From the NCBI GenBank assembly GCA_937872225.1, contig CALMRZ010000047.1:124001-188000 (forward strand): 64,000 nucleotides of DNA, read 5' to 3'. How positions within the stretch are numbered: the stretch's first letter is position 1; the number at the start of each line of letters is the position of its first letter. This document shows, piece after piece, positions 14,474 through 34,160 of this stretch. The stretch comes from an uncultured Spirochaetota bacterium (GTDB lineage Bacteria > Spirochaetota > UBA4802 > UBA5550). The notes below the pieces were generated by a model. The model saw nothing but the letters and a program-made list of their open reading frames with translations. It was not told where the DNA came from and did no database searches. The position numbers were made by a program, and so were the translations under genes.

Positions 14474-14509
14474 TGTGAAGCGATAATGATTTCTTCCCGA
14501 GGTGACCCC

Positions 14510-17467
14510 ATGAATTTCACGAATATCCTTGTCCGTTTCCTGCTGCGGCTGATGGCGGTTATCTACAACCGGCGGCCTTCAAAGAACGCGTACCTGATCT
14601 GCGCAGACGGATGGATAAACTTCACCATCGGGGTCCGCACCGAGGACTCCTGCGTCCGTGCCGCCATCAGGTTCCGGGACGGGACCGTGTCGGTCATGAA
14701 GAACATTCCCGGCGACGCCGACTCGGTCCTTGTCTTCCGGGACGGCCCGTCCATCAGGGAGGCCATCAACCTGCCACCCAACGAGATGGTGCTCTTTTTG
14801 ATCAAGGGGAGGCTCCGGATCGAGGGGAACTTCGTGTATCCCAATATCTTCAACTACCTGATTTCCAACCTCCTGCACGACAGACATAAGAAAATGCAGG
14901 ATAAGATGATACGGGAGCACCGGCGCCAGAAGCTGGCTGATTCGCTCCAGGGGGACCTCAAGCCGGCCCCCGCGGAAAAAAAGGTGAGGGAAGGGATGCT
15001 GAAGGCGACAGTCCGGGACCCGGGCGTTGAGTACCTCGAGGACCAGTTTCTTCCCGAATATTCCCTGGCGGATTTTCCCCGCCTGAAGAAATTCCTCGAT
15101 ATCCATTTCACCGCCAAGCCGGAGATCTGCCACGAGCGGCCACAGCTCATGACGCGCTGGTTCCGCGAGAACGGCTTCGAGAAGAAAAAGGACGGCACGG
15201 ACTGGTCCCCGGAGCTCCGGCAGGCCCACGCCTACCGGTACCTGATGGAGAACCGGAAGCCGATCATCCGGAAGGACGACCTCGTCGCCGGCACCTCCAC
15301 CACGAAGGAGATCGGCGTCATACTGTATCCGGACGCGGTGGCGACCATGATATGGAGCGAGCTCGGCAATGTGGCCGACCGCGAGCTCAATTCCTACGCG
15401 ATTTCGGAGGAATCACGGCGCGTGCTCCACGGTGAGGTTTTTCCCTTCTGGACCGGGCGCAATTTCCGCGAGTGGGTGCGGAAGGAATACGGCAATCCCC
15501 TGTGCCAGCGCATCGACGAGCGCTTCGCCGTGTATTTTCTCTGGAAAACGGTGGCGCTGTCCCACACCATAGCCGATTTTCCGAAGCTCCTCAGGATCGG
15601 AACGAGGGGCTGCATCGAGGAAATACGACGGGAGCTCGCAAAGACGTCCGAGACCGGCAAGCGGAACCTGCTGGAGGCGATGATACTCTGCCTGGAGGGC
15701 CTCGCCGCTTACGCGAAGAACCTGTCGATGCAGGCGGGGCGGGACGCGGGGGATGAGCCGGACATGGCGAGGAAGCGCGAGCTGCTCCGCATCGCCGAGA
15801 TCTGCCGGAAGGTTCCCGAAGGCCCCTGCACGACCCTGGACGAGGCGGTGAACGCAGCGTGGATCGGGTGGGTGGGCCTCCACATGGAGAACACCAATGC
15901 CGGCCTCTCCCTGGGCAGGATGGACCAGTGGTTTCAGCCGTATTTTAAAGCCGACATGGAGAAATGCGCCACACAGGAAGAACGCGACGCCTGCATCAAG
16001 AAGGCCATCGAACTCGTGGGCTGCTTCTACTTGCGCTGCACCGACCACCTGCCCCTGGTTCCGGACATCGGCAACTACCTCTTCGGCGGCAGTTCGTCGG
16101 ACCAGGCCATCACCCTGGGCGGCGTCACCCCCGACGGCGAAGACGCGGTCTGCGACATGACCTACATCTTTCTCAAGGTAACCGAGATGCTCAGCATCAG
16201 GGACCCCAACGTGAACGCGCGCTTCAACCGCGAGAAGAACAGCGAGGCCTATCTCAAGCGCCTCTGCGAGGTGAACCTGATGACCGCGGCGACCCCGTCG
16301 CTCCACAGCGACTCGGCGGTCATGGCCTCCCTGGAGGAGTTCAACTACGACCCGCGGGACCTGCGCAACTGGTCCGCCACGGGGTGCGTGGAGCCGACCC
16401 TGTCGGGCAAGCACATCGGCCACACCAACTGCATGATGATGAACATGGTGGCGGCCCTGGAGATGGCACTGAACAACGGCCGTCACCCCCTCATGGATTG
16501 GAAGGTGGGGCCCGAGACCGGCGTGATCGAAAGCGGGAGCTTCGCCACCTTCGAGGAATTTTACGACGCCTTCGCGAAGCAGTTCCGGTTTCTCATAGAC
16601 AATTCCGTCGAGTACAACAACATGCTGGGGAGGGCCCACGCCTATCTCAGGCCGACGCCGCTCCTGTCGGCCCTCATCGACGGCCCGGTGCGCAAGGGCG
16701 TCGACGTGACGAAGGGCGGGGCGACCTACAACAGCTCCGGCGCGGCCTGCATCGGCCTCGCGGACGTCACCGATTCCCTCATGGCGGTGAAAAAGCTCGT
16801 GTATGACGAAAAACGGGTCACCCTCCCGGAATTCAAAAAGGCCATCGACGCCGACTACGCGGGGCACCCGCAGCTCCATGCCATGGTGATGAACCGGGTG
16901 CCGCGCTTCGGCTCCGGGAGCGACGAGGCCCTGGCCCTGGCGCAGCGGGTGGCGGGATTCGCCCATGACGCGTACTACGCCCATGAAAACTACCGGGGCG
17001 GCCGCTACACCGCCGGGTTCTGGTCCATGTCGAACCACGTGATCTTCGGCAACATGACCGGCGCGCTCCCGTCGGGGAGGCTCGCGGGCAAGGCCTTTAC
17101 GCCGGGCCTTACGCCTGAGCCGAATGCGTCCAGGAACCTGCTGGACAACATCCGCGACGTGGCGCGGCTCGACCCGAAGACCATGAACAACAACATCGCC
17201 TTCAACGTGAAGGTGGTGCCCAGCGCGAGCGAGACCCACGAGGCCATGGTGAACACCATGTACTCCTACGTGAAGACCTATTTCGAGCTGGGGGGAATGC
17301 AGATGCAGATGAACGTGGTATCGTCGGCGGTCCTCCGCGACGCCATGGCCCACCCGGAGAACTATCGGAACCTGATCGTGCGCATATCCGGCTACAACGC
17401 CTACTTCGTCACCCTGAACCGTGAGATGCAGATAGAGCTGATCGAGCGGGCGGAGTACGGGGTATGA
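14510..17467 (+). CDS. Glycyl radical enzyme fused to an N-terminal SCP2-like domain
   Basis: A 985-residue glycyl radical enzyme of the PFL/diol dehydratase superfamily, about 150 residues longer than usual. Numbered from the ATG at 14510 (GAGGTGA 4 bases upstream; an in-frame ATG at 14486 has a poorer site), thiyl-radical Cys626 and base Glu628 lie in ATGCVEPT, and radical Gly961 lies in RISGYNAYF near the C-terminus. The GCVEP signature marks dehydratases and C-N or C-S lyases rather than true pyruvate formate-lyase, which has CC. Residues about 25-125 look like an SCP2 sterol-carrier fold: a strand-rich start, a DSVLVFRDG stretch, then LFLIKGRLRIEGN. Such domains bind lipids, so a hydrophobic substrate is possible. 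Neighbours are an iron ADH before and the activase after. Oxygen-sensitive and cytosolic. Substrate unknown. Confidence 0.85.
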   Translation: MNFTNILVRFLLRLMAVIYNRRPSKNAYLICADGWINFTIGVRTEDSCVRAAIRFRDGTVSVMKNIPGDADSVLVFRDGPSIREAINLPPNEMVLFLIKGRLRIEGNFVYPNIFNYLISNLLHDRHKKMQDKMIREHRRQKLADSLQGDLKPAPAEKKVREGMLKATVRDPGVEYLEDQFLPEYSLADFPRLKKFLDIHFTAKPEICHERPQLMTRWFRENGFEKKKDGTDWSPELRQAHAYRYLMENRKPIIRKDDLVAGTSTTKEIGVILYPDAVATMIWSELGNVADRELNSYAISEESRRVLHGEVFPFWTGRNFREWVRKEYGNPLCQRIDERFAVYFLWKTVALSHTIADFPKLLRIGTRGCIEEIRRELAKTSETGKRNLLEAMILCLEGLAAYAKNLSMQAGRDAGDEPDMARKRELLRIAEICRKVPEGPCTTLDEAVNAAWIGWVGLHMENTNAGLSLGRMDQWFQPYFKADMEKCATQEERDACIKKAIELVGCFYLRCTDHLPLVPDIGNYLFGGSSSDQAITLGGVTPDGEDAVCDMTYIFLKVTEMLSIRDPNVNARFNREKNSEAYLKRLCEVNLMTAATPSLHSDSAVMASLEEFNYDPRDLRNWSATGCVEPTLSGKHIGHTNCMMMNMVAALEMALNNGRHPLMDWKVGPETGVIESGSFATFEEFYDAFAKQFRFLIDNSVEYNNMLGRAHAYLRPTPLLSALIDGPVRKGVDVTKGGATYNSSGAACIGLADVTDSLMAVKKLVYDEKRVTLPEFKKAIDADYAGHPQLHAMVMNRVPRFGSGSDEALALAQRVAGFAHDAYYAHENYRGGRYTAGFWSMSNHVIFGNMTGALPSGRLAGKAFTPGLTPEPNASRNLLDNIRDVARLDPKTMNNNIAFNVKVVPSASETHEAMVNTMYSYVKTYFELGGMQMQMNVVSSAVLRDAMAHPENYRNLIVRISGYNAYFVTLNREMQIELIERAEYGV

Positions 17468-18627: not shown

Positions 18628-20463
18628 TCAGTCGTACTTGATCTTGAAGCGGGACATGACCGCCTGGAGCTCCTTCGAGTTTTCCCCGAACTTAGTCGCG
18701 GCGTCCTGGATGATGGACGCCTCTTCCGCCGTTGCCTGTGAAATCGTGTTGATCGATGTCACCGACTTCATCAGCTCGTCGTTGGTATGCTTCTGTTCCT
18801 CGGATGAATTTTTTATCTCGTTCGATATCCTGTTCAGGTCGTCTATCTTGAGCTTGATCTCGTCATTCATCTTCATCAGTTCCTGCGTGAAATCAAAGAC
18901 TTTCCCTATGACGAGGTCGATGCCGCTGATGCTTGCCTTCATGGTGTGAAAGGTGTCCACCGAGCGGGTCATCTGGGAGAGCTCGGTGTTGATGTTCCTG
19001 GTGTGCTCGCTGATCTCTTTCTTGATGATCTTGGCCAGCTCGGTGGTCCGGTCCGCCAGCTTGTTGACCTCGTCGGCTACCACGGCGAAGCCCTTGCCGT
19101 GCTCCCCGGCCCGGGCGGCCTCGATGGCCGCGTTGAGGGCGAGGAGGTTGATCTGGTCGGCAATGTCGTTGATCATGCCCGCGGTCTGGTCGATGGTGTC
19201 CATGTATCCGATGAGGTTGGATATGGTCGACACGGACTTGTTGATCTGCTTTTCCCCTTCCTCCGCTATCGCGACCGAGTCCCGGGCCTTTTCGCTCAGG
19301 GTCCAGGTCTCTTTCGCCAGTATGCCGCTCTGCTCGCTTATGCGGGAGATGTCGTTTTTGACCGATACGGACTGCTGGACCTGACGGGTGACGCTGGCCA
19401 TGTTGGATTCGGACGAGGCCGCCATCTCCTCGAAAGAGCTGGTCAGCTCCTCGATGATGGCCGCCAGCTCCCGGGCCCGGTCGGACTGCTTGTAGGATGA
19501 GTTTACCAGGTCGCCGGTCGATTTCTCGAGGGTCTCCACCGTGCCCGAGATGGCCTCGACCAGGGACTTCAGGTTGTTCCGCATCTTGAATACCGACATG
19601 TTGATGACGGTCAGCTCGTCCATTATGGCTATTTTGGCCGGTGCCGCGACCAGGTCGCCCGTCCCGACCTTGTCCAGGAAATCGATGATTATTTTCACCT
19701 TGTTGATGATGGTCCTGTTCAGCACGGCCGCCACCAAGACCGAGCCGATCAGGCCGATGACGGCAATGATGGATATTTTCACGTATGTCATGGTCTTGTC
19801 AAAGTTGAAGTCCGAAATGAAAACGACAAAATAGGTCAGGAGTATGGCGAAAGGGATGAACGAGATCATCATGATCGAAAAAGTAAGCTTGGCGAAAAGG
19901 CTCATCCTGTTTTTTATCTCGGTCCGGGGCCATCGCGGAAAGATGCCGGTTTTCAGGATTTTCTGGACAATGAGCTCCGTAAGCAGGTAATAGAGCACGG
20001 CGCCCAGGGGAGCGTTGATTATGAGCATCATCCACATGCCGAAGGTCTGCTGGGGCGTCATGGCGCCAATGATCTGCATCGGGATGATGACACCGCCCAG
20101 ACCGGCTACCCATCTGAAAAAGGCGCCGATGCCGTGGATGCGGGGCAGATAGAGCAGCCGGCGGTGGGCCTTCTGGTAATCCTCGTCGGTGACTTCTTTG
20201 CCGCCTAAAATTTTATTGAAATAACGCGAGACCGGCGCCACGGCGATATGGTTGTTGATCTGGGTCGTTATGAAGGAAACCGGCGTGACAATGAGAACCA
20301 TGGTGAAAAAGAGGTCCCACTGCCCGGGCGTGAAATTAAGGCTGGACCATACGTTGAACACGATCAGGGGGACTATGGTGAAATAGCTGATCCCCTCGGT
20401 CCGGATAGTGAATTTGAAGAAGAAGTTCTTTATCAGTTTTTCATAATCTTTCGGTTCTGTCAT
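18628..20463 (-). CDS. Methyl-accepting chemotaxis protein with polytopic sensor module
   Basis: A 611-residue chemoreceptor. The first about 260 residues contain roughly six hydrophobic helices instead of the usual two-helix periplasmic sensor. After a HAMP-like linker comes a long coiled coil with the receptor hairpin tip ([20 protein letters not shown] and [18 protein letters not shown]), which binds CheA and CheW. The membrane module ([20 protein letters not shown], then [14 protein letters not shown]) is clearly related to the N-termini of the two SpoIIE phosphatases encoded at 21755-23551 and 23697-25514. It may thus sense a membrane-borne or intramembrane signal. It is convergent with the activase gene and separated from the phosphatases by a plus-strand TPR gene. 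Confidence 0.88.
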
Positions 20464-20712
20464 GTTCTATCTCTCTCTCCTGATCGCAGGTTAACGATAT
20501 GACGAACCCCCCACTTCTGCCCGGTTATGACAGTATGCATTTACATAACGGGGATGCTATTTTTCAATCATTAATTTGCGTCCGCAAATAATTTCGAAAC
20601 CGGACGCGGGAATAAACTGATTTGAATTTATGTCCATCGAAATAGTTCTTGTCTTAATCGTACCCCTGAATCATCCTGATGCGAAATCATTCCATCAACC
20701 CGGGGGAAATTC

Positions 20713-21729
20713 ATGAAAAAGCCGATAGCCCTGATAACGGCGCTGATACTGCTGGCTGCACTGCGGTTGGTCGCCGATCAGTCCATTGAAAGCCTGAAGC
20801 TCGGCACGGGGGACCTGCCGCAGGGCTATGCCTTCGGCGCGGAGCTCATGGCGGTTTCCGTTCAGCCGGTCACGTTCTACAAGATGCCCGACGCTTCAGG
20901 CCTCATGCCGGGTCCGGTGAAAAAGGACTTCCAGACCTTCCTGTACGAAGGGAAGCCCCGGGGGTCCCTGCTCCTTTTCCAGTACGCCAGCGCCAAGGAG
21001 GCTGACGGAGTGAAAAGCTTCCTCACCGGTCTCCTGTGGGGCGAAGACAGCGGCCCGACGGAAAAGCATCCCGATGAGATGTATGTTCACGAAAATGTCG
21101 TGATGATCTTCTGCTTCGGATACCGGAGCCGGGAGTCGCTGCTGGTGAAATCGTTCCTCCGGGAAAAGAGAAAGATAGACCTCTTCACCCCCGAGGACCG
21201 CTTCATGGCGGTGATCGCCCGGGCCCAGAAGTTCTACAATGTCAGGGACGTGCAGAAGGGGATCGATCACCTGAAAAAGAACTATGACGACATCAGGGCC
21301 CACAGCTTCGGCCACTTCTTCCTTGCCGAGTTCTATTATATGGCCCATGAATGGGACAATGCGAAGACCCATTACCGGAGCGCCCTTGATCTCCATGAAA
21401 AAACAAACAGGCTCCCCGATGAGGGCTCCCTCTGGGCCGCGCATCACGGCCTCGGCATATCCTGCGCCATGACCGGCCGGGTGCAGGAATCGGTGGGACC
21501 CTTCAGGAAGTCCCTGGAGATGGCCCGCGCCCTGAAACGGCCTGCGATGGTGTCCGGATCGGCCTACGACCTGTCGTGCTCCCTGGCGGTTCTCGGGGAA
21601 TACGATGAGGCCTACGAACTCCTGGCGGAATCGATCAGGCTGGAAAAGAAATACCGCGACATGGCGCGGAAGGACGAGTGTTTCAGGGACGCCCTGGTTC
21701 AGAAACGCTTCAGGGACCTCCTCAAGTAG
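20713..21729 (+). CDS. Exported TPR-repeat protein
   Basis: A 338-residue protein with an N-terminal signal peptide (MKKPIALITALILLAALRL) and no other membrane helix. The middle (about 30-150) is unrecognised; from about 165 there are tetratricopeptide-like helix pairs (FGHFFLAEFYYMAHEWDNAK, then GRVQESVGPFRKSLEMAR and GEYDEAYELLAESIRLEKK). TPRs mediate protein contacts, so a periplasmic scaffold role is likely. It sits between the chemoreceptor and the phosphatases but on the opposite strand. A GGGGGAAA-type site precedes the ATG. No enzymatic motif is seen. Confidence 0.7.
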   Translation: MKKPIALITALILLAALRLVADQSIESLKLGTGDLPQGYAFGAELMAVSVQPVTFYKMPDASGLMPGPVKKDFQTFLYEGKPRGSLLLFQYASAKEADGVKSFLTGLLWGEDSGPTEKHPDEMYVHENVVMIFCFGYRSRESLLVKSFLREKRKIDLFTPEDRFMAVIARAQKFYNVRDVQKGIDHLKKNYDDIRAHSFGHFFLAEFYYMAHEWDNAKTHYRSALDLHEKTNRLPDEGSLWAAHHGLGISCAMTGRVQESVGPFRKSLEMARALKRPAMVSGSAYDLSCSLAVLGEYDEAYELLAESIRLEKKYRDMARKDECFRDALVQKRFRDLLK

Positions 21730-21754
21730 GGCCGACAGGCGCCCTGCCGGCCGG

Positions 21755-23551
21755 TTATTTCCGTTTAATGACGATGGCCGTCAGGTCGTCCTTGAGGGCG
21801 GTGTTGCCGTGGAAGGCGGTGAATTCGACGATGATATGGTTCAGGATTTCCTGGGCGGAACCGTTGGGGGCCTTCCGCAGGGCCTCCATGATCCCCGTTT
21901 CGCCGAAGCTGCCGCCGCTGCCGTTTGCCGCTTCCAGCAGGCAGTCGGTATAGAGGAGGAGGCAGTCGCCGCTCCCGAGCTTGAGGGAAAGGGACGGGAA
22001 AGGCTTGTTGATGCCGGCCACGCCGAGAAAGGACGATTTGTTCTCAGTGCCGGTCCTCTCCAGGATCATCCCCACCTTGCCGGAGACGCCCGACCTGAAC
22101 ACGATGTCCGGGTGTGCGCAGTTGACGTATTCAACGCGGTCGTCCAGGAACCTGAGTAAAATCCCCGTGATGTAGTTGTCGATCTGGCCGATCTCTTCGA
22201 CCAACTCCCTGTTGATATTCTCGACGATGCCGCTCAGGGGCTGGTCTTTCCGAAAATTGAAATGCCGTGAAATGATTGATTTCGAGAGGAGGGTGAGGAG
22301 CCCGGATGAAAGGCCATGGCCCGAGACGTCGAATATGCCGACGCCCTTCAGCTCCCCCTCGCTTTCATAGAAATCGAAGAAGTCCCCGGACACCTCGCTC
22401 CAGGGGACGTAGGTGAAGGCGATGTCATAGGATTGGTACGCGGGGGCCTTCCGCGGGAGAAACCCGGACTGGACGCTCCCCGCGAGGTACATGTCCTTCT
22501 TGCGGATCCGTTCCGTATCCTCCAGCTCCCTGTTGACCCGGACCAGGTTGTCGTTCATCGCCTCCAGCTCGTTCATGGCGGCCTCGAGCTCCTCGGTGCG
22601 CTCCGCCACTTTCTTTTCCAGGTTCACGTTCATGTCCAGGAGGAGGTCCCGGGCGACGCGGAGCCGGTTCCTCATGTCGTCGACCTCGGCGATGACATCG
22701 CTGAATTCGTCGTGGGCGATGAGCTCCCGGTGCGGGGCCTCGAGGTCGCCGCCGCCGATGCGTTTCAGAAACGCCACCACGGCGTTCATCCGCTCCCGGA
22801 TCGTCATGTTAAGCAGGATCGGGGTGAAGAGCCCGAAAATAATCGATATTCCGATGATGACGCCGACCCGCACGTACAGCAGCATGGTGCCGATCCTGTT
22901 TGTTTCCACGGTTATGTACATGAACATGAAGAGCAGGAATACCGGCAGGAGCACGGCGGACACGGAGAGGACCGTGAGGCGCTGGACCAGGCTCAGCCGG
23001 GGCGACAGGTCTTCGCTGGTTTTCCGGGAGAACACCCCCCTGTTTATGATGCGCTGTATGTAGAGTTCGGTGATCGTGAAGTAGGACATGATCCCCAGGA
23101 GGGAGCAGAGGGGCGGTCCCAGCCACATGTTGACCGCCTGGGGGACCGTGAGATCGGCCATGATGTTGATCACGAGGATTGGGAGGGAAAGGAGCAGCAG
23201 CCAGCGGAACAGGGCCCCGACGGCATGGATGACCGGGAGCCTGAAAAATCGCTTCTTAGCCCTGGCATATTCCCCGTCCGGCACCTCTTGGCCTTTCCGG
23301 AGTTTTTTAAAGTATTTCAGCACGGGGAGCAGCACGATCCAGTTGTTCACCAGCACGAAGGCGAGGCCGAATGCGAAAAAAGGGGGCCATGTTTTGTTAA
23401 AGAGCTCTAACTGCGCCGGCGTCAGCTGGATGTTGGCCCAGACATAGAACAGCACGATGGGGACCACGACGAAAAAGCTCAGGCCTTCGGTCATGACATT
23501 GAATAGAATAAAAAAGTTCCTGATCGCTTTTTTGTCGGCACCCTGCTCCAT
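21755..23551 (-). CDS. SpoIIE/PP2C-type phosphatase with membrane sensor (copy 1)
   Basis: A 598-residue membrane phosphatase. The start is placed at 23551 (MEQGADKK) because GGGAGGA lies a few bases upstream, although the frame is open further. Residues about 15-280 form the polytopic module shared with the chemoreceptor (GLSFFVVVPIVLFYVWANI). A HAMP-like stretch and a coiled coil (EELEAAMNELEAMNDNLV) lead to a SpoIIE domain: VSGDFFDFYE, FDVSGHGLSSGLL, LLLYTDCLLEA and KDDLTAIVIKRK supply the acidic metal ligands. It should dephosphorylate a Ser/Thr-phosphorylated target such as an anti-sigma-factor antagonist, but no such partner is nearby. YTDC replaces the more usual YTDG. Confidence 0.85.
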   Translation of the reverse strand: MEQGADKKAIRNFFILFNVMTEGLSFFVVVPIVLFYVWANIQLTPAQLELFNKTWPPFFAFGLAFVLVNNWIVLLPVLKYFKKLRKGQEVPDGEYARAKKRFFRLPVIHAVGALFRWLLLLSLPILVINIMADLTVPQAVNMWLGPPLCSLLGIMSYFTITELYIQRIINRGVFSRKTSEDLSPRLSLVQRLTVLSVSAVLLPVFLLFMFMYITVETNRIGTMLLYVRVGVIIGISIIFGLFTPILLNMTIRERMNAVVAFLKRIGGGDLEAPHRELIAHDEFSDVIAEVDDMRNRLRVARDLLLDMNVNLEKKVAERTEELEAAMNELEAMNDNLVRVNRELEDTERIRKKDMYLAGSVQSGFLPRKAPAYQSYDIAFTYVPWSEVSGDFFDFYESEGELKGVGIFDVSGHGLSSGLLTLLSKSIISRHFNFRKDQPLSGIVENINRELVEEIGQIDNYITGILLRFLDDRVEYVNCAHPDIVFRSGVSGKVGMILERTGTENKSSFLGVAGINKPFPSLSLKLGSGDCLLLYTDCLLEAANGSGGSFGETGIMEALRKAPNGSAQEILNHIIVEFTAFHGNTALKDDLTAIVIKRK

Positions 23552-23696
23552 CGATTCCTCCCTGTTGACGGCGCTGTTAGACGGCCTGTGGGTATCATGG
23601 CCCGCCGCGGCCATTATGAAAACATGGAAATGGAAAAGACGCAAGCTTTTTTCTGGGCGCGTACCGAGGGGGTGCGGGGGTGCGGTTGGGCGGGGG

Positions 23697-25514
23697 TCAG
23701 TTTTTCTTTATCAGAATCGCGGTAAGGTCGTCCCTGACGGGGTTTCCTTCCCTGAATTCATTGAACGTGTTCATGATATGGTCCAGCATCTCCCGGGCGG
23801 TCCCCGCGGGGGCGTTCTGCAGCGATGCCATGATCCCCGTTTCCTCATAGGAACGGCCGCGGGGGTTCTTCGCTTCCGCCAGGCAGTCGGTGTAGAAGAA
23901 GAGGCAGTCACCGCGCTCCATGGCCATCGTCACCGCGGCAATGGGCTCCTTCATGGCGGCCACGCCGAGAAAGCGGCCGGTGCAGTTTACGCCGGCGCTG
24001 TCCAGGACCCTCCCGACCCTGCCGGTCGATCCCGACCTGAAGAGCAGGTCCGGTGACGCGCAGTTGACGTACTCGACACGGTCCCCGTTAAACCGGACCA
24101 GCACCCCCGTGACGTACTGTTCCGTGGCGCCCATCTCGGCTATCAGGATGTCGTTGATCAGGTCCATGATGGTCCCGAGACTTTTATCCCTGTTGAGATA
24201 GAAGTTGCGGCGGATGATCGACTTGACCAGGAGGGTGAGGAGGGCCGATGATATGCCGTGGCCCGATACGTCGAAAAGGCCCGCGCCCTTTAACTCGCCG
24301 CCGTCCTCGTAGAAATCGAAGAAATCGCCCGAAACCTCGGTCCACGGCCGGTAGACGAAGGCGACGTCAAGGGTGCGTCCGTGAGGGACGCTCTTCGGGA
24401 GGAAGGAGGCCTGCACGCTCGCGGCCAGGGCCATGTCGTTCCTGCGGACCTGCTCCGCCTCTTCCATGGCCCTGTTCATGGCCACCAGGTTGTCGTTCAT
24501 CGCCTCCAGCTCGTTGTTGGCCGCCTCCAGCTCCTCCAGTGCCGCCGCCAGGTCCTGCGTGCGCTCGGAGACTTTTTTCTCCAGGTTAAGGTTCAGCTCC
24601 AGGAGCTCGCCGCGGGACCGGCGGAGGCGGTCCTTCATGTCGTCCACGTCAGCTATGATGTCGCTGAGCTCGTCCTGTATCGGCACTTCCCGGGGCACGG
24701 CGTTGAGGTCGCCGTCGCCGATCCGCTTGAGGAAGTCCGTTACGATCCCCGTCCGGTGGCGGATGGTCTTGTTGACCAGCGCGGGGCTGAAGAACCCGAT
24801 TATCATCGAGAAGACCACGAACACGGCCATCTTCCCGTACAGGAACGGCGTCCCCATGCCGGCCGTCTCGACCGTGATGATGAAGAAGACGGAGAGGAAG
24901 AGGACCGGCAGCAGGACGGCCGATACCGACAGCAAGGTCAGGCGCTGCAGCAGGGTCAGGCGCGGCTGGTTTTGCGGCCCGGGGCCGGATTGAAACACGC
25001 CGCTGCCGATGAGGTTCTGCACCGCGATTTCAGTTATGGAAAAATAGGAGAACACGCCGACAAAAGCGCATGAAACGGCCCCCATCCACATGGTGGCGAT
25101 CTGGGTGCCCGACAGGTCTGCCATGACAGTCATGAGCGCGATGACGATGCCCAGAAGCACGAGCCAGCGGAAGAAGGAGATGGCGGCATATGTGAAGGGG
25201 AGCCGCAGCAGGCGTTGTTTGGCCTTCAGGTATTCAACATCGCCGACCGGTGTGCCGCTGTTGATGCTCTTCAGATGCCCGGTTATGGGCAGGAGGACGA
25301 GCCAGTTGGTGGCCAGTACGAAGGCAATGCCGAAGAGCAGCATCGGCGGCCAAATGCTGTTGAATATCGCGAACTGCTCCGCCGTGAGCCTGATGGACGT
25401 CCACACGTAGAATATCGTAACGGGGACCACGATGAGAAAGCTGAAGCTGCCCGTGAACAGGTTCAGGGTGATGAAGAAATTCCTGGTTGCCTTTCTGTCG
25501 CTACCGTAATCCAT
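23697..25514 (-). CDS. SpoIIE/PP2C-type phosphatase with membrane sensor (copy 2)
   Basis: A 605-residue tandem paralogue of the next gene downstream. The membrane module starts at FSFLIVVPVTIFYVWTSI and includes LPFTYAAISFFRWLV; then come a HAMP-like linker, a coiled coil (LEELEAANNELEAMNDNLV) and a SpoIIE phosphatase domain with VSGDFFDFYE, FDVSGHGISSALL, FFYTDCLAEA and RDDLTAILIKKN. Metal-binding Asp residues are intact in both copies, so both should be active. The two genes are 145 bases apart and probably co-transcribed. Differences cluster in loops between helices, so the two may respond to different signals through the same output chemistry. Confidence 0.85.
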   Translation of the reverse strand: MDYGSDRKATRNFFITLNLFTGSFSFLIVVPVTIFYVWTSIRLTAEQFAIFNSIWPPMLLFGIAFVLATNWLVLLPITGHLKSINSGTPVGDVEYLKAKQRLLRLPFTYAAISFFRWLVLLGIVIALMTVMADLSGTQIATMWMGAVSCAFVGVFSYFSITEIAVQNLIGSGVFQSGPGPQNQPRLTLLQRLTLLSVSAVLLPVLFLSVFFIITVETAGMGTPFLYGKMAVFVVFSMIIGFFSPALVNKTIRHRTGIVTDFLKRIGDGDLNAVPREVPIQDELSDIIADVDDMKDRLRRSRGELLELNLNLEKKVSERTQDLAAALEELEAANNELEAMNDNLVAMNRAMEEAEQVRRNDMALAASVQASFLPKSVPHGRTLDVAFVYRPWTEVSGDFFDFYEDGGELKGAGLFDVSGHGISSALLTLLVKSIIRRNFYLNRDKSLGTIMDLINDILIAEMGATEQYVTGVLVRFNGDRVEYVNCASPDLLFRSGSTGRVGRVLDSAGVNCTGRFLGVAAMKEPIAAVTMAMERGDCLFFYTDCLAEAKNPRGRSYEETGIMASLQNAPAGTAREMLDHIMNTFNEFREGNPVRDDLTAILIKKN

Positions 25515-25768: not shown

Positions 25769-26425
25769 ATGCCGACGCCAGCATCAGTGCAGGCTCTTCA
25801 GGGGCTGAGGGATTTGTCAATGCTCAAATGGTACGTGATCCCGCTTCTGGTCATAGTCGCGTACGTCTACACCATGGAGGTCAAGAAGGCCCGCGAATCC
25901 GGCGTCTGGGACGCGGTCTTTTCCGGGATGACCGTCTTCGGGATGGATTTTTTCAACGAGACCTGGAACGGATGGGTGTTCCACCTGACCCAGTATTCGG
26001 CCTTCTGGACGACGCCGGGCGACACGGCCCTGCGCACCGCGGTCGGATGGAACATCGAGATCATGTTCATGTTCTCCATCCTCGGCATCGTCTACTATCA
26101 TTCCCTTCTGCCGGATAAAACAACACGGATACTGGGGGTCCCGAACCGTTGGTTCTGGGCGGCGGTCTTTGCCGCTGTCTGCGTCTTCATCGAGTGCGTC
26201 CTCAACTGCGGCGGGCACCTGGTGTGGGAATACCCCTGGTGGAACCGCACCTTCGCCGGGGTGTGGCTGATATTCATCTTCGGCTATTTCGAGTTCTTCG
26301 CGGCCGTCATGTTCATGCTGAGCCGGAAGACCATGAAGGGGAAGCTGGCGGTCATCGGCATGATCTACGCGGTGCCGGCCGCGATGAACATCATCGGCCT
26401 GGGTATCCTCGGGTTCACCTACTGA
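25769..26425 (+). CDS. Conserved-looking polytopic membrane protein
   Basis: A 218-residue integral membrane protein with about five hydrophobic helices, for example WYVIPLLVIVAYVY, MFMFSILGIVYYHSLL, WFWAAVFAAVCVFIECVL and LIFIFGYFEFFAAVMFML. It is rich in Trp and aromatic residues between helices (MDFFNETWNGWVFHLT, VWEYPWWNRTF). GGGAGG precedes the ATG. I do not recognise the family. It overlaps the end of the convergent decayed hydrolase by a few bases and lies next to the molybdopterin oxidoreductase, but on the opposite strand. The 254-base gap before it holds nothing I can name. Confidence 0.65.
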   Translation: MPTPASVQALQGLRDLSMLKWYVIPLLVIVAYVYTMEVKKARESGVWDAVFSGMTVFGMDFFNETWNGWVFHLTQYSAFWTTPGDTALRTAVGWNIEIMFMFSILGIVYYHSLLPDKTTRILGVPNRWFWAAVFAAVCVFIECVLNCGGHLVWEYPWWNRTFAGVWLIFIFGYFEFFAAVMFMLSRKTMKGKLAVIGMIYAVPAAMNIIGLGILGFTY

Positions 26426-33131: not shown

Positions 33132-34160
33132 TTACCTCTCCCGGAGGATGTGGCACGACCTGCCGGGATTCTTGCCGAAGTAATCCTGGTGATGTTCTTC
33201 GGCGACGTAAAATTTACCCGCCGGTCTTATTTCCGTAACTGCTGTCTTCTTGAAAACGCCTGACCGGTCGAATTTCTCCTTCGATTTCTCCGCCGCCTTC
33301 TTCTGCTCCTCGTTGTGGTAAAAGATGGCGGAGCGGTATTGCGTGCCGATATCCGGCCCCTGGCGGTTAAGCTGGGTCGGATCGTGGAGGCGCCAAAAGT
33401 AATCAAGGAGCTCCTCGTAGGTTATCACCGCCGGGTCATACTCCACCTGAACCGCCTCGGCGTGGCCGGTATCTCCGGAGGACACGTCCCAATAGCCGGG
33501 ATGCTCGGTTGTTCCCCCGGTGTATCCGACCGTTGTCTTTGCAACACCCCTGACCTTCTTGAATATATGCTCGACGCCCCAGAAGCATCCTGCGGCAAAG
33601 GTGGCCAGCTCGGTTTTTTTTCCGGACGAAACTTCTTTATTAAAGAGCTTTGCGTATTCCCCATATCCTTCCTTCTCGAGGTTTTCCGCCGGAATGAACC
33701 TGAGGGCTGCGGAGTTCATGCAGTAGCGCAGACCCGTGGGCGCAGGTCCGTCCTCGAAGACATGGCCCAGGTGCGAATCCCCTTTTTTGCTGCGCACCTC
33801 GGTCCGCACCATGAAATGGCTTGAGTCTATCTTCGCGACGATGTTCTCTTTTGCCAGGGGCCTGGTGAAGCTCGGCCACCCGGTGCCGGAGTCGAATTTG
33901 TCAAGGGAGCTGAAGAGCGGCTCGCCCGAAACCACGTCGACATAAATGCCGGGGCGGTGGTTGTTCCAGTATTCATTATGGAAGGGCGGCTCGGTGCCGC
34001 ATTCCTGTGTCACCCGGTATTGTTCCCGGGTCAGTTTTTTCCTTAGTTCGGTTTTATCTTTTGTATTCATGGCTGAATACCCCTCTTGTCTACAGGTTGT
34101 GCAGAACGGAAGTCCTGCCAGTAATGCTATTATTAAAGAAAGTTGTATAAACCGGAGCAT
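33132..34160 (-). CDS. msrBA: Secreted bifunctional methionine sulfoxide reductase, MsrB-MsrA fusion
   Basis: A 342-residue exported repair enzyme that reduces both methionine sulfoxide diastereomers in proteins. A signal sequence ends in LAGLPFC (possible lipobox Cys20). The MsrB domain (about 38-170) has GTGWPSF and catalytic Cys147 in RYCMNS; the CxxC pairs that bind structural zinc in many MsrB proteins are absent. The MsrA domain (about 185-340) has catalytic Cys192 in GCFWGVE, and EAVQVEYDP and the [11 protein letters not shown] signature. The B-A order and envelope location resemble extracytoplasmic Msr fusions of pathogens. The electron donor is not encoded nearby. It is convergent with the DUF2007-like gene. 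Confidence 0.9.

Follow-up and report, generated by a model that had tools for sequence, protein, structure and literature searches.

A six-helix membrane module with a HAMP domain, related to cyclase membrane anchors, on a chemoreceptor and two SpoIIE phosphatases of a spirochaete

Three reverse-strand genes of an uncultured bacterium raise the question of how a chemoreceptor and two protein phosphatases come to begin with what looks like the same membrane sensor, and of what kind that sensor is. The genes lie in the window, by which we mean the whole 64,000-nucleotide stretch analysed here, on contig C47 of a Spirochaetota genome of 95 contigs (G000). The first, at 18628–20463 (−), encodes a chemoreceptor (MCP) of 611 amino acids that consists of a six-transmembrane (6TM) module (residues 1–249, 19717–20463), a HAMP domain (residues 250–299, 19567–19716), which was placed from the aligned HAMP region and from Pfam HAMP matches in relatives, and a signalling domain (residues 390–555, 18799–19296; PF00015, E = 2.9e-33) with the conserved hairpin-tip motif. 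The second, SpoIIE A, occupies 21755–23551 (−) and has its catalytic domain at 21761–22342 (PF07228, E = 1.3e-26). Its 629-residue reading frame is open to 23644, and the likely translation start is residue 32 of the frame, at 23551, since this is where the homologous module begins. SpoIIE B (23697–25514, −; 605 amino acids) has its catalytic domain at 23706–24278 (PF07228, E = 1.1e-25).

The first-pass annotation had assigned taxis to one of these proteins and PP2C-type dephosphorylation to the other two, and the Pfam matches bear this out. Both catalytic domains conserve the metal-site aspartates in the motifs GD..D, DVSGHG, TD and DD.T, which in SpoIIE A read GDFFD, DVSGHG, TDC and DDLT. 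Judged from sequence, the MCP and SpoIIE outputs look active. The usual TDG motif is TDC or SDC in both window SpoIIE domains and in four further proteins (L019–L022).

A TPR gene on the opposite strand (20713–21729, +) separates the MCP gene from the SpoIIE pair; its product has an apparent signal peptide, and no such gene stands between MCP and SpoIIE in a related genome, G004. On the other side of the SpoIIE pair, 25769–26425 (+) encodes a conserved membrane protein of an unnamed family, a homologue of which adjoins a SpoIIE gene in genome G003 (77% identical, L049). The MCP has as neighbours an iron alcohol dehydrogenase and a glycyl-radical enzyme with its activase. Among MCP relatives, some are likewise encoded close to iron alcohol dehydrogenases (L061–L063, L067) or to a glycyl-radical activase (L066) and others are not; we take the neighbourhood as a lead toward alcohols or aldehydes as ligands and as nothing beyond that. 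The glycyl-radical enzyme itself (14486–17467, +), of the PFL2-3 type, has about 198 N-terminal residues beyond the family models and scores under all family cut-offs. Farther along the window, 33132–34160 (−) encodes a methionine sulfoxide reductase fusion with SelR and PMSR domains.

Over 298–299 residues the three N-termini can be aligned along their whole length. The common unit is thus about 299 residues long and comprises six transmembrane helices and a HAMP domain, collinear in the MCP and in the two phosphatases, where it covers 22655–23551 (SpoIIE A) and 24621–25514 (SpoIIE B). HAMP, which the first reading of the sequence had overlooked, follows directly behind TM6, is aligned in all three proteins and belongs to the shared unit; Pfam detects it in 7 of 30 relatives (best E = 9.8e-5). 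The two SpoIIE modules are 50% identical to each other, and the MCP module is 29–32% identical to them over this alignment. With HAMP removed, TM1–6 of the MCP still match SpoIIE B (23697–25514) at E = 4e-28 and SpoIIE A (21755–23644) at E = 1e-42 in BLASTP searches. Both sequence signatures originally noted, the stretch Y-F-x-x-V-P-x-x-x-F-x-V-W (including SFFVVVPIVLFYVW / SFLIVVPVTIFYVW) and the loop motif resembling L-P…F-F-R-W (including RLPVIHAVGALFRW / RLPFTYAAISFFRW), were found in the N-termini. Residues T22, S26, P32, Q48, P77, R102, L106-P107, H110, R117, W118, Q139, T162, E163, Q167, G173 and F175 are near-invariant in the 30 relatives; many of them are polar, and the conserved polar set is common to the MCP and SpoIIE modules. 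In profile–profile comparisons, reversed profiles scored at background, as did most of the genome's remaining multi-helix SpoIIE N-termini, which served as decoys and many of which have five to seven helices. All decoys scored at or below 3% save two, L204 (92.8) and L187 (15.5), of which L204 is a true divergent carrier of the module. That the three N-termini resemble each other through hydrophobic composition alone, all of them being multi-pass membrane segments, is contradicted by the pairwise E-values, by the invariant polar positions and by the background scores of the reversed and decoy controls, and is so improbable that we set it aside. The homology extends beyond hydrophobicity, because specific residues are conserved and the controls stay at background, and on these alignments the N-termini are a true homologous module placed on differing outputs.

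The N-termini of L187 and of L203, another SpoIIE protein of the genome, contain LP and FTE/LTE motifs, ordered as in the module, with profile scores of at most 8–16%, and may be additional SpoIIE-borne branches of the module. An internal duplication of TM1–2 and TM3–4, suspected by eye, was unsupported (probability 7.1; reversed 1.2).

To define the topology of the module we examined loop charges across the 30 relatives and modelled structures with AlphaFold. The positive-inside pattern is clean: the N-terminus, the loops between helices 2–3 and 4–5 and the end of TM6 lie inside and three short loops of about 10 residues lie outside, giving six helices with both termini in the cytoplasm. The two models, one of the MCP module and one of that of SpoIIE B, were built from 11 sequences and have mean pLDDT values of 79.9 and 72.6, respectively, and their helices correspond one to one; those of the MCP module span residues 14–41, 46–87, 93–132, 137–171, 189–217 and 223–267. 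Read against the model helices, most of the near-invariant residues (T22, E23, R102, L106-P107, H110, R117-W118, T162-E163 and Q167) would lie at the inner face of the membrane, while Q48 and Q139 would lie in outer loops. For Rv1625c, which belongs to another class of cyclase, a lipid pocket has been modelled with a glutamine of an outer loop as its cap (PMC12505454); the parallel with Q48 and Q139 is an analogy and only suggestive. A fold search of the PDB with the module model gave no confident match (best Foldseek E = 0.77; best VIA Z = 7.3, to a designed bundle), and in a PDB sequence search with the module the best hits were HAMP domains at E = 0.3, the rest being chance matches at E above 0.3.

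Is the module an unnamed domain, as the first-pass annotation had proposed? It is unnamed in the sense that no model in the Pfam and NCBIfam copies searched covers the helices of the window proteins, and a Pfam scan of 30 modules returned HAMP and chance matches only, with no membrane sensor model of the 7TM or MASE type. The helices themselves are homologous to a described group, the membrane anchors of HAMP-linked class IIIb adenylyl cyclases. A profile of the transmembrane part alone matched the anchors of spirochaete 6TM-HAMP cyclases with a probability of 97.7 (P = 1.6e-12, 243 columns; reversed control 0.2), and TM1–4 alone did so with a probability of 95.9 (P = 6.4e-9). The spirochaete anchors in turn matched actinobacterial cyclase anchors with HAMP removed (probability 97.0, P = 7.9e-11), and the actinobacterial profile retrieves spirochaete 6TM-HAMP cyclases. 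Compared directly and without HAMP, the module and the actinobacterial anchors gave a moderate match (probability about 78, P = 1.9e-5), so that the link between them rests on the spirochaete cyclases as a bridge; reversed profiles among the three groups scored at most 2.1. The actinobacterial set consists of six plasmid-borne cyclases from Tsukamurella, Rhodococcus and Nocardia, of 6TM-HAMP-cyclase architecture, with HAMP and PF00211 confirmed by Pfam in the four tested and no helix domain named by Pfam in those checked; Rv3645 enters the comparison by description only, and a plasmid hit in Mycobacterium ulcerans (H68) was left out of the set. The HAMP-linked anchors form a described, mainly actinobacterial cluster, exemplified by Rv3645, with no known ligand (PMC4821796; PMC9995111).

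The window proteins carry no class III cyclase catalytic domain, their outputs being MCPsignal and SpoIIE by Pfam; by domain content it is the sensor alone that is related to cyclases, and the window proteins are not themselves cyclases. Class III cyclases of the same genome have N-termini that differ from the module as judged by eye. At the right window edge, from about 63683 onward (G000:C47:187683–188132), there is a class III cyclase domain match near TPR repeats.

Taken together, these results argue, with a probability that we put at roughly 80%, that the N-terminus common to the three proteins is a mobile membrane receptor of six helices, carries a HAMP transmitter and is homologous to HAMP-linked class IIIb cyclase anchors of the Rv3645 type. 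Our best guess is that it is embedded in the membrane as a receptor, senses a hydrophobic ligand or the state of the membrane and signals via HAMP. The six-helix bundle would dimerise and respond to such a ligand or state; the external loops are only about 10 residues long, and the most likely point of entry for the signal is therefore in the membrane or next to it. HAMP would relay the change to CheA control in the case of the MCP and to the PP2C phosphatase in that of the SpoIIE proteins, and the phosphatase would dephosphorylate a STAS antagonist of the genome's partner-switching network. With 47 SpoIIE and 40 STAS matches in the genome, partner switching is a major pathway there; the network is very large for one bacterium. 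A scan of the neighbouring window genes found no STAS gene.

The module also occurs beyond the window. A profile search of the source genome identified eight clear carriers, the three window proteins and five more MCPs, and together with the divergent SpoIIE protein L204 the genome holds at least six module proteins beyond the window. At least 52 of 393 Spirochaetota genomes carry the module at E ≤ 1e-10, a lower bound with at most six candidates scored per genome. Its carriers in Spirochaetota are mostly MCPs, and a Cache domain is often inserted between TM5 and TM6. An extra domain occupies this position in three of the five further MCPs of the source genome and in many relatives; in L084, L087 and L088 Pfam identifies it as dCache_1, behind the module end and ahead of HAMP. 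These and similar MCPs may hold two sensors stacked in one chemoreceptor. Seen from the Cache-bearing relatives, the window proteins are ordinary TM-loop-TM-HAMP receptors with the loop reduced and four helices added in front. A profile scan of contigs, which reaches close relatives only, retrieved only uncultured Spirochaetota records; tblastn of the MCP module against plasmids gave chance matches only, and none was found in a scan of viral contigs. In the accessible literature, which includes few subscription journals, the module is not described on MCPs or SpoIIE proteins.

A further claim of the first-pass annotation, that the domain had been swapped between outputs at this one locus, does not agree with the history of the module. 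In a module tree rooted with cyclases, the seven window-type SpoIIE modules group together as one clade (100/97) whose sister group is the MCP modules of that type (97/88), and this clade branches ahead of the MCP-module radiation; a divergent SpoIIE module, L106, falls inside another MCP group. A single origin of all SpoIIE modules was rejected on two trees, that of the modules (AU p = 1.3e-4) and that of the SpoIIE domains (AU p = 1.5e-6). In the latter tree the two groups stand apart, and their sister SpoIIE domains are attached to different sensors: L205 has 7TMR-DISM, and L202 has a multi-helix N-terminus that lacks similarity to the module. From both rejections and the unlike sensors of the nearest SpoIIE relatives, we conclude that at least two independent fusions brought the module to SpoIIE. 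SpoIIE–MCP adjacency was observed in no genome other than G000 and G004, which are two species of a single genus. As the two branches are old and the adjacency was seen in these two species only, a swap at this locus is unsupported.

The first-pass annotation also suggested that the neighbouring MCP and SpoIIE proteins could report one cue, which would steer swimming and gene expression alike. In G004 one SpoIIE gene (77% identical) and the MCP gene (79%) adjoin, are co-directional and lie about 50 bp apart; the glycyl-radical activase that adjoins the MCP in the window does so there too, and the conserved polar set is common to the modules. Against this, the window MCP lies outside the SpoIIE operon, the SpoIIE and MCP branches split ahead of the MCP radiation, and in the fetched flanks of SpoIIE genes in G001, G003, G010 and G016, some on short contigs, there is no such MCP. 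At 27–35% identity between the modules, a common cue is possible and not likely by default, and we regard it as doubtful.

It has long been debated whether the membrane domains of adenylyl cyclases sense signals or only anchor the enzyme (PMC4821796), and the module might likewise serve mainly for dimerisation and membrane anchoring, the signal entering elsewhere: through Cache in the Cache-bearing relatives and through partner proteins, perhaps, in the three window proteins. No ligand site was identified in the module, and this and the short external loops would fit such a role. So would the Cache-bearing relatives, in which the TM5–TM6 loop holds a ligand-binding domain of the usual kind and TM1–4 therefore need not be the only sensor. 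However, specific polar residues are strongly kept over very divergent proteins and the module was repeatedly transferred between outputs, both of which exceed the needs of an anchor, and an MCP without a sensor would be unusual. We thus consider a mere anchor rather unlikely and favour a receptor embedded in the membrane. A receptor role of such cyclase anchors has been argued (PMC4821796), and inhibition by fatty acids via the membrane domain was shown for the class IIIa cyclase Rv1625c (PMC12505454).

On this reading, one receptor design has been coupled in nature to the control of swimming, to protein dephosphorylation and to cAMP production. The occurrence of natural homologues of the anchors on chemoreceptors and phosphatases is an independent argument from evolution that such anchors act as receptors. 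The module proteins also allow ligands to be screened by swimming behaviour or by a phosphatase read-out, and annotation databases gain a missing sensor family. More speculatively, the module could be a general membrane-embedded receptor for lipids or hydrophobic signals, with the orphan cyclase anchors as one branch and, in the window, one hydrophobic cue acting on swimming and on partner-switch gene control. We think this improbable as a whole; were it true, ligands of Rv3645-type anchors could be found by taxis assays on the chemoreceptor or phosphatase versions.

The module has counterparts among several known systems. MASE1–5, MHYT, 7TMR-DISM and HisKA_7TM are likewise membrane-embedded sensors on several outputs, but their Pfam models match none of the 30 modules. 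The window SpoIIE proteins share the catalytic domain and metal-site aspartates of SpoIIE/RsbU-type partner-switching phosphatases, whereas their sensor is 6TM-HAMP and not PAS, GAF, RsbU-N or 7TMR-DISM. As in Cache-HAMP-MCP chemoreceptors, TM5-loop-TM6-HAMP-MCP forms an ordinary two-helix receptor, and relatives have Cache in the loop; the window proteins differ in their four extra helices in front and in a loop of about 10 residues in place of Cache. Chemoreceptor and cyclase parts were also swapped across HAMP in the laboratory Tsr/Tar-Rv3645 chimeras (Kanchan et al. 2010, as described in PMC4821796), in which, according to that account, a chemoreceptor sensor was placed on a cyclase, whereas in the window evolution has put a cyclase-type anchor on a chemoreceptor. 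The closest likeness is to the HAMP-linked class IIIb anchors (cluster 2 of PMC4821796; Rv3645/MacE type), with six helices, HAMP right behind TM6, equivalently placed LP…W and (T)E motifs, profile homology of the transmembrane part and elongated helices or loops, described for the cluster (PMC4821796) and likewise present in the module models. The window proteins are set apart by an MCP or SpoIIE output in place of a cyclase, by the motifs VPxxxFxVW and FFRW and residues Q48/Q139, and by an identity of about 14%. On present sequence evidence the module is best filed as a variant of the known but orphan HAMP-linked cyclase anchor, driving chemotaxis and dephosphorylation.
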